Assembly (NCBI RefSeq): GCF_025950085.1
Contig: NZ_JAPDDS010000009.1
Location: forward strand, 124,001-188,000
Length of the DNA stretch: 64,000 bases
Source of the DNA: Luteolibacter flavescens
GTDB taxonomy: Bacteria > Verrucomicrobiota > Verrucomicrobiia > Verrucomicrobiales > Akkermansiaceae
Direction: 5' to 3'
Shown one piece after another: positions 1,414 through 1,670 of this stretch. The position numbers and the translations under genes are program-made. Numbering within the stretch: position 1 is the stretch's first letter; each line of letters opens with the position of its first letter. Under the pieces are notes generated by a model. That model saw nothing but the letters and a program-made list of their open reading frames with translations, made no database searches and had not been told where the DNA came from.

Positions 1414-1670
1414 AAAAAACATCGACCCGCACAACAGACTTACCGCGCGCGCAGCATCGCCTATCATGCGGGTCGAGTTAAGACCCCGAAGGGTCGACAG
1501 TTCTCTCCCCAGAGAACGCCTATGTAATGGCAATCCTCGTGCCAAAATTTGGCGACGTGCTACATCTCCCTGATTTCCAATGATATGATTAATATCGCGA
1601 ATTTCGTGGGAGAATCGGATAGGTGGCATATCCGGAAGGTCTTGCAAACTTGCCTGCAAATCTTGCAAGG
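1414..1670 (-). ncRNA. Candidate structured non-coding RNA with its own terminator
   Basis: The stretch is poorer in GC than its neighbours and packed with complementary arms. On plus-strand coordinates these are: 1641-1647 with 1663-1669 (CTTGCAA/TTGCAAG); 1616-1621 with 1629-1634 (CGGATA/TATCCG); 1565-1570 with 1608-1613 (TCTCCC/GGGAGA), enclosing 1582-1586 with 1592-1596 (GATAT/ATATC); 1522-1526 with 1561-1565 (ATGTA/TACAT), enclosing GGCA/TGCC and GCCAAA/TTTGGC arms; 1500-1506 with 1511-1517 (GTTCTCT/AGAGAAC); and 1482-1486 with 1491-1495 (GACCC/GGGTC). The last stem, 1467-1475 with 1423-1431 (nine pairs), is followed on the minus strand by six T at 1419-1414, which is the form of an intrinsic terminator. 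This sets the strand. I recognise no known RNA class. The 5' end is a guess. Confidence 0.5.

Follow-up and report, generated by a model that had tools for sequence, protein, structure and literature searches.

A candidate sigma-54-controlled small RNA family in Luteolibacter flavescens and related Verrucomicrobiota

The most likely identity of the stretch 1414-1670, which lies in a 64,000-nucleotide segment of the Luteolibacter flavescens genome (hereafter, the window), is a short gene for a non-coding RNA that has a switchable promoter of its own. It would belong to a previously uncatalogued family which, in Luteolibacter-like bacteria, goes together with one particular pair of sensor and activator genes. 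We think it probable that the minus strand of 1669-1414 is the complete gene of a small RNA which is induced by an activator and acts in trans, much as Qrr, CrcZ and GlmY do, without belonging to any of those families.

Anatomy of the putative RNA gene

An earlier note on this DNA had described a single hairpin-dense RNA over 1414-1670. The entire stretch folds better than shuffled sequence on the minus strand (z -5.49, beating 200 of 200 shuffles), but the hairpins of the RNA lie in 1517-1414, where 104 nt reach z -7.17 with none of 200 shuffles as good, versus z -0.80 for 1518-1740 alone, which 39 of 200 shuffles equal. The 257-base RNA of that note is thus a 104-nt RNA plus control DNA. The predicted fold of 1517-1414 consists of three hairpins and a U-tract, and the features of the locus are as follows.

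1414-1517, minus strand: small RNA of 104 nt, proposed +1 at 1517 (z -7.17; matched by model R1, see below)
1500-1517, minus strand: HP1, near-invariant 5' hairpin GUUCUCUGGGGAGAGAAC (alignment and fold)
1482-1495, minus strand: HP2, variable hairpin with a UUCG loop (alignment and fold)
1414-1479, minus strand: HP3, long hairpin with a U6 tract, probably an intrinsic terminator (covariation, fold and pair probabilities)
1530-1544, minus strand: sigma-54 -24/-12 promoter, TGGCA-N7-TGC, ending 12 nt before the RNA and its first hairpin
1571-1584, minus strand: tentative, weak likeness by eye to a second conserved block near -65 (CATTGAA), not significant in the window copy alone
1641-1669, minus strand: likely activator site with TTGCA-type repeats, core TGCA-N9-TGCA at 1642-1658 (-141)

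The nine-pair terminator stem followed by six T on the minus strand, as first noticed by the earlier reader, is indeed present, with arms CGACCCGCA (1475-1467) and TGCGGGTCG (1431-1423) and the T6 at 1419-1414. Its pair probability exceeds 0.999, and a consensus terminator scan listed only an inner hairpin of HP3 without the full stem. The two closing stems that had been proposed, TCTCCC/GGGAGA (1565-1570 and 1608-1613) and ATGTA/TACAT (1522-1526 and 1561-1565), lie wholly upstream of the proposed RNA start at 1517, and the upstream inverted repeats fall in the sigma-54 promoter and the likely activator site rather than forming stems of the RNA.

At the promoter place the minus strand reads TTGGCACG..TTGCC, which we take to be the -24/-12 sigma-54 pattern, followed by GTTCTCTGGGG. 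This pattern is described in the available text of PMC1569441. The DNA across 1376-1750 is AT-richer than its surroundings, as had been observed (GC 0.47-0.53 versus about 0.65), with the minimum in the upstream part. The absence of a credible gene is likewise borne out: ORF 1324-1668 was rejected as a protein gene, given that it is not a common frame and that starts, stops and linker lengths vary between members, and no reading frame is common to the 26 RNA copies compared. The PEP-CTERM gene at 2690-1860 lies upstream of the sigma-54 promoter, not downstream, and a PEP-CTERM leader was discarded on this ground; downstream of the RNA there is a gene for a 127-aa membrane protein at 1134-751. 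Further along, positions 1-636 of the window and its left flank (L079:2376-6637) carry an mdoG-like gene (Pfam MdoG) and then a glycosyltransferase gene, for which no link to the RNA was seen.

An RNA family with a conserved fold and promoter

When 1400-1760 was compared at the DNA level with the own genome and with 96 relatives, most matches were short and chance-like. The best one outside the locus itself is on contig C3 of the own genome (E 2.4e-8), and this match, together with those in the same-genus genomes G012, G003, G007, G015, G009 and G010, covers about 1547-1499. The matching loci show the same three-hairpin RNA. Model R1, made from 13 main-locus copies of the genus with the window copy left out, matches the window at 1517-1419 with 30.3 bits (E 4.2e-5 for the 64-kb window, E 0.0039 for the whole genome). 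R1 also matches copies in a second genus of the GTDB family (E 1.3e-4 to 2.3e-3), which had been found before R1 by pattern searches for a sigma-54 site plus hairpin.

Model R2, made from 19 members without promoter columns, was run on 260 genomes of the GTDB family and matched 28 places in 15 of them. Of these places, 26 are intact copies, spread over 13 genomes with one to three each; G011 and G008 contribute altered loci. Three of the intact copies, in G710, in G724 and the second one of G110, were new, and the match in G714 is on a contig already met as L184 through the promoter pattern. This search used stricter filters and scored 15 candidates per genome, so that weak copies may be missed; it did miss an altered locus in G006 that the R1 genome search had found. 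Neither antisense matches nor the altered loci in G006, G008 and G011 enter any of the 26-copy counts. The set A3, used for the 19-member alignment, left out L069, L071, L072, L075-L078, L081 and L131, and its E cut-off was set to exclude antisense matches, by which the third G211 copy was lost. The own genome holds three RNA genes, the window copy being the most diverged by R2 scores.

In a wider scan, which may omit records near the window's genome, a promoter and hairpin-start pattern run over 84,980 species genomes matched 12 contigs; five of them carry the RNA (8 sites) and it is absent from seven. The carriers are Luteolibacter marinus NBU1238, Haloferula sp. BvORR071, two Verrucomicrobiaceae MAGs and one Akkermansiaceae MAG. 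Within the GTDB family, 18 of the 27 places listed by the pattern search are RNA copies, with L083, L091, L092, L099 and L100 outside the inspected set of this tally, and inspection of the sequence at L095, L096, L098 and L101 found the RNA absent. The same search in the rest of the phylum gave 12 matches, of which the one inspected, L111, has no hairpin.

Three hairpins recur in the members: the first, at the 5' end, is near-invariant, the second is variable and the third is long. In the model-fitted alignment of 19 members, which leans towards the structure, the paired cells amount to 92.1%, and changes on both sides are seen in 23 of 32 pairs, a count reached by none of 500 shuffles and compared with 9-15 in slid versions; all four model pairs of HP2 are among those that change on both sides. 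Homologues with covarying pairs thus exist in Verrucomicrobiota, a point that the earlier note had proposed to check. The signal is weaker in an unfitted MAFFT alignment of 13 copies, where the count is 6 of 32 pairs, with 3 of 500 shuffles reaching it and 0-6 in slid versions; further pair types are not above shuffles in it (473/500). HP1 hardly varies, and its pairs therefore say little on covariation. Most main-locus copies of the genus are without a clear U-tract, which leaves their 3' ends uncertain.

Promoter spacing is a second common feature. The GG-N10-GC element occurs 11-13 nt before the RNA in 25 of the 26 copies, window included, and at exactly 12 nt in 20; the sole exception is G012a. 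It is also found 12-13 nt upstream of the copies of G710 and G724 and the second copy of G110, which were first detected by the promoter-blind R2. Further upstream, 13 of the 26 copies have a T[TG]CA-N7-9-TG[AC]A repeat within a single 12-bp position window near -140; the -141 repeat of the window copy is one of these, sharing its position with 12 of the other 25. Any other position window holds the repeat in at most 3 of 26. Since this motif was derived from the same sequences, and under that definition 13 of 26 copies lack it, we take the shared position as evidence and not the motif itself. A longer upstream motif is not significant in the window copy alone (P = 0.13).

No RNA class of Rfam 15 fits, in keeping with the earlier note: the 64-kb window has no match at gathering score, and three sub-threshold matches in 1150-1860 are at chance level. 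No match lies inside the RNA, whether in the window or in any of 18 loci, seven of them searched at gathering score and 11 at E 0.5, the latter giving one chance match. Low-score matches to miRNA, ctRNA, PhotoRC-I and HepC_CRE were treated as chance. The view of an orphan, uncatalogued, structured and terminator-ended minus-strand RNA stands, and a literature search with little cover of subscription papers found no printed description of the family. An Acido-Lenti-1 RNA (RF01687) scores above the gathering score at L012:521-566, about 0.8 kb from the nearer G007 copy; being outside the RNAs, it was rejected as the identity of the family.

Linkage to a sensor kinase and a sigma-54 activator

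Each of the 13 genomes has one RNA copy whose locus also contains an ortholog of a hybrid kinase, of an NtrC-type activator (EBP), or of both. Nine genomes have both in the RNA locus (G000, G007, G009, G010, G012, G015, G110, G211 and G710), G029 and G724 have the EBP without the kinase, and G714 (at a contig end) and G003 have the kinase without the EBP, the EBP of G003 being about 8.6 kb from the nearer RNA. In the window's own genome, kinase and EBP are encoded elsewhere, beside the two sister RNA genes, and the window copy is solitary. The three EBPs scanned all have receiver and sigma-54 activation domains, with a Fis-type HTH in two. For the kinases, two were scanned, and each has PAS, GAF, HisKA, HATPase and receiver domains.

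The RNA and the EBP also co-occur. Among genomes tested for both, the intact RNA is present in 10 of 10 with an EBP of at least 65% identity and in none of 56 without. These comprise 57 genomes of the same family (8 with an ortholog at this threshold) and 9 further ones (2 with), beside which three entries of the second search repeat the first. The EBPs of G710 and G724, at 65% and 63% by local comparison, are outside the two tally searches. Three of the 56 genomes, G011, G008 and G006, carry an altered RNA locus (L071, L072 and L075) and no EBP: GG-N10-GC and the -65 block are kept, the lower stem of HP1 is lost and the -140 repeat is absent. Such loci constitute a natural experiment on activator loss. 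The sigma-54 gene itself is found in 17 of 18 genus genomes, own included, the one miss being a genome of 72% completeness.

More distant EBPs (45-51% identity) were rejected as RNA partners, as no opening hairpin follows their sigma-54-like sites; about 1.5 kb on each side of 12 such loci showed no TGGYA-N7-WGC site followed by an opening hairpin. Two of these sigma-54-like sites, in L142 near 3502 and in L137 near 1284, are possibly promoters of other regulons.

Besides the window copy, G007:C5, G010:C1 and G110:C12 are solitary and away from the kinase and the EBP. No gene is common to the neighborhoods of these four copies, which speaks for an action in trans. The solitary copies of G010 and G007 each have a small protein nearby, of 102 and 121 aa respectively (L073:5321-5629 and L074:6562-6927); the two proteins resemble each other and have no Pfam match.

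Hfq (PF17209) was not found in any of the 18 genus genomes, with a control positive in 5 of 14 genomes, and neither was CsrA (PF02599), with a control positive in 3 of 14 well-known genomes, including E. coli and B. subtilis. This makes action in the manner of Qrr/CrcZ or CsrB unlikely as such.

Proposed mode of action and alternatives

We propose that a hybrid sensor kinase with PAS and GAF domains would sense a cue and activate the NtrC-type EBP, which, judging from the sequence, would bind the repeats near -141 and fire the sigma-54 promoter. Transcription would stop at HP3 and its U-tract, giving a product of about 104 nt, and one to three such RNAs per genome may be made under the EBP and sigma-54. 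Without Hfq or CsrA, the RNA could act in trans through its near-invariant 5' hairpin, either by titrating an RNA-binding protein or by base pairing. HP1 is the part nearly unchanged across all copies, and its core TTCTCTGGGGNGAGAA occurs three times in the own genome, once per RNA gene, from which we infer that HP1 may be the head through which the RNA works, by binding either a protein or a target. The invariance is partly a matter of ascertainment, because HP1 was the seed of the first searches. More tentatively, and with somewhat less than even confidence, we suggest a new class of enhancer-activated regulatory RNA in a group without detectable Hfq and CsrA, in which HP1 would dock an RNA-binding protein that one to three copies titrate or recruit under a dedicated PAS/GAF kinase-EBP pair.

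An attenuated 5' leader would offer a different account of the same promoter and terminator, with sigma-54 transcription mostly stopped at HP3 and read-through controlling the downstream gene, here the 127-aa membrane protein and elsewhere the kinase or the EBP. The RNA does precede an EBP or kinase gene in the same direction in G029, G724, G211, G714 and the second G110 copy, but it follows the EBP in the main loci of the window's genus (e.g. L064, L066 and L069), the solitary copies have no common downstream gene, and a second conserved fold was not found, so that we hold a leader to be unlikely. The lack of such a fold also bears on the switching RNA, riboswitch or attenuator, with competing stems that the earlier note had favored. 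The hexamer GGGTCG is present twice, at 1470-1475 and 1491-1496, and in principle one arm could pair with either of the two minus-strand CGACCC copies; nevertheless, pairing of the second copy with the terminator arm has a probability of about 1e-4, while that of the terminator stem exceeds 0.999, and by eye the alternative pairs are not found in the other 18 aligned members, making a switch very improbable.

The presence of several copies, the link to a two-component system and the G-rich loop of a hairpin recall the CsrA-titrating RNAs of the CsrB/RsmY kind, to which we give almost no weight given that the Pfam CsrA model has no match in 18 of 18 genus genomes. It is also highly improbable that the window copy is a decayed or neutral repeat without function. 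It is solitary and the most diverged of the three in its genome, but its promoter is intact at the exact spacing, HP1 is intact, HP3 is strong and has its U-tract, the repeat is present at -141, and HP2 and HP3 have changed in sequence with their pairing kept.

An activator-induced small RNA acting in trans has precedents in other bacteria. Qrr RNAs need Hfq, which was not found in the 18 genus genomes, and the window family has no Rfam match to Qrr. According to the available text of PMC10162802 and PMC2680268, the Qrr RNAs of Vibrio are sigma-54 small RNAs under a response-regulator EBP (LuxO) that often adjoins them, with several copies in V. harveyi, and the LuxO site TTGCAWWWTGCAA has half-sites similar to those of the window family, the spacing being wider here (7-9 nt). 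A sensor kinase, an NtrC-family EBP and sigma-54 small RNAs are also combined in CbrA/CbrB and CrcZ/CrcY/CrcX of Pseudomonas, which act on an RNA-binding protein (PMC8657755, in the part available); CrcZ, however, antagonises Hfq-Crc, with no Hfq found in the 18 genus genomes here, and there is no Rfam match in sequence or structure. GlmY of E. coli, which sequesters RapZ, shares the two-component sigma-54 control through QseE/QseF (PMC7073468, available text), whereas the window family is without an Rfam match. The PrsK/PrsR-dependent sites of PEP-CTERM genes have a -24/-12 element and an upstream response-regulator EBP site, as here, but in the available part of PMC1569441 they are reported only for Proteobacteria and for mRNA genes; the site in the window is predicted to drive a non-coding RNA, and the neighboring PEP-CTERM gene is upstream of it. 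The best reading is that the window RNA would work like a sigma-54-controlled small RNA of the Qrr/CrcZ/GlmY sort without being a member of those families.

Regulation by small RNAs has been little explored in Verrucomicrobiota; for the PVC group as a whole, a 2022 review gives, in its available part, 8 distinct annotated small RNAs, versus 345 for Proteobacteria (PMC9029176). The family described here brings its own putative switch, made of kinase, activator, upstream site and promoter, and a fixed head motif, in bacteria without detectable Hfq and CsrA, the two textbook partner proteins of small RNAs, which raises the testable question of what reads a small RNA without them. It would also extend to another phylum a sigma-54-to-small-RNA logic that the cited papers, as far as available, describe for Proteobacteria.

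Five places that match TTCTCTGGGGNGAGAA have no sigma-54 site and were set aside as not belonging to the family. They carry the HP1 core TTCTCTGGGG[AG]GAGAA and are L175 (G007:C18:62286), L173 and L174 (G007:C10:149700 and 287608), L155 (G009:C18:98816) and L159 (G003:C11:10590). A strong hairpin follows the core in at least four of the five, and these places possibly represent a second, differently driven use of the same head.
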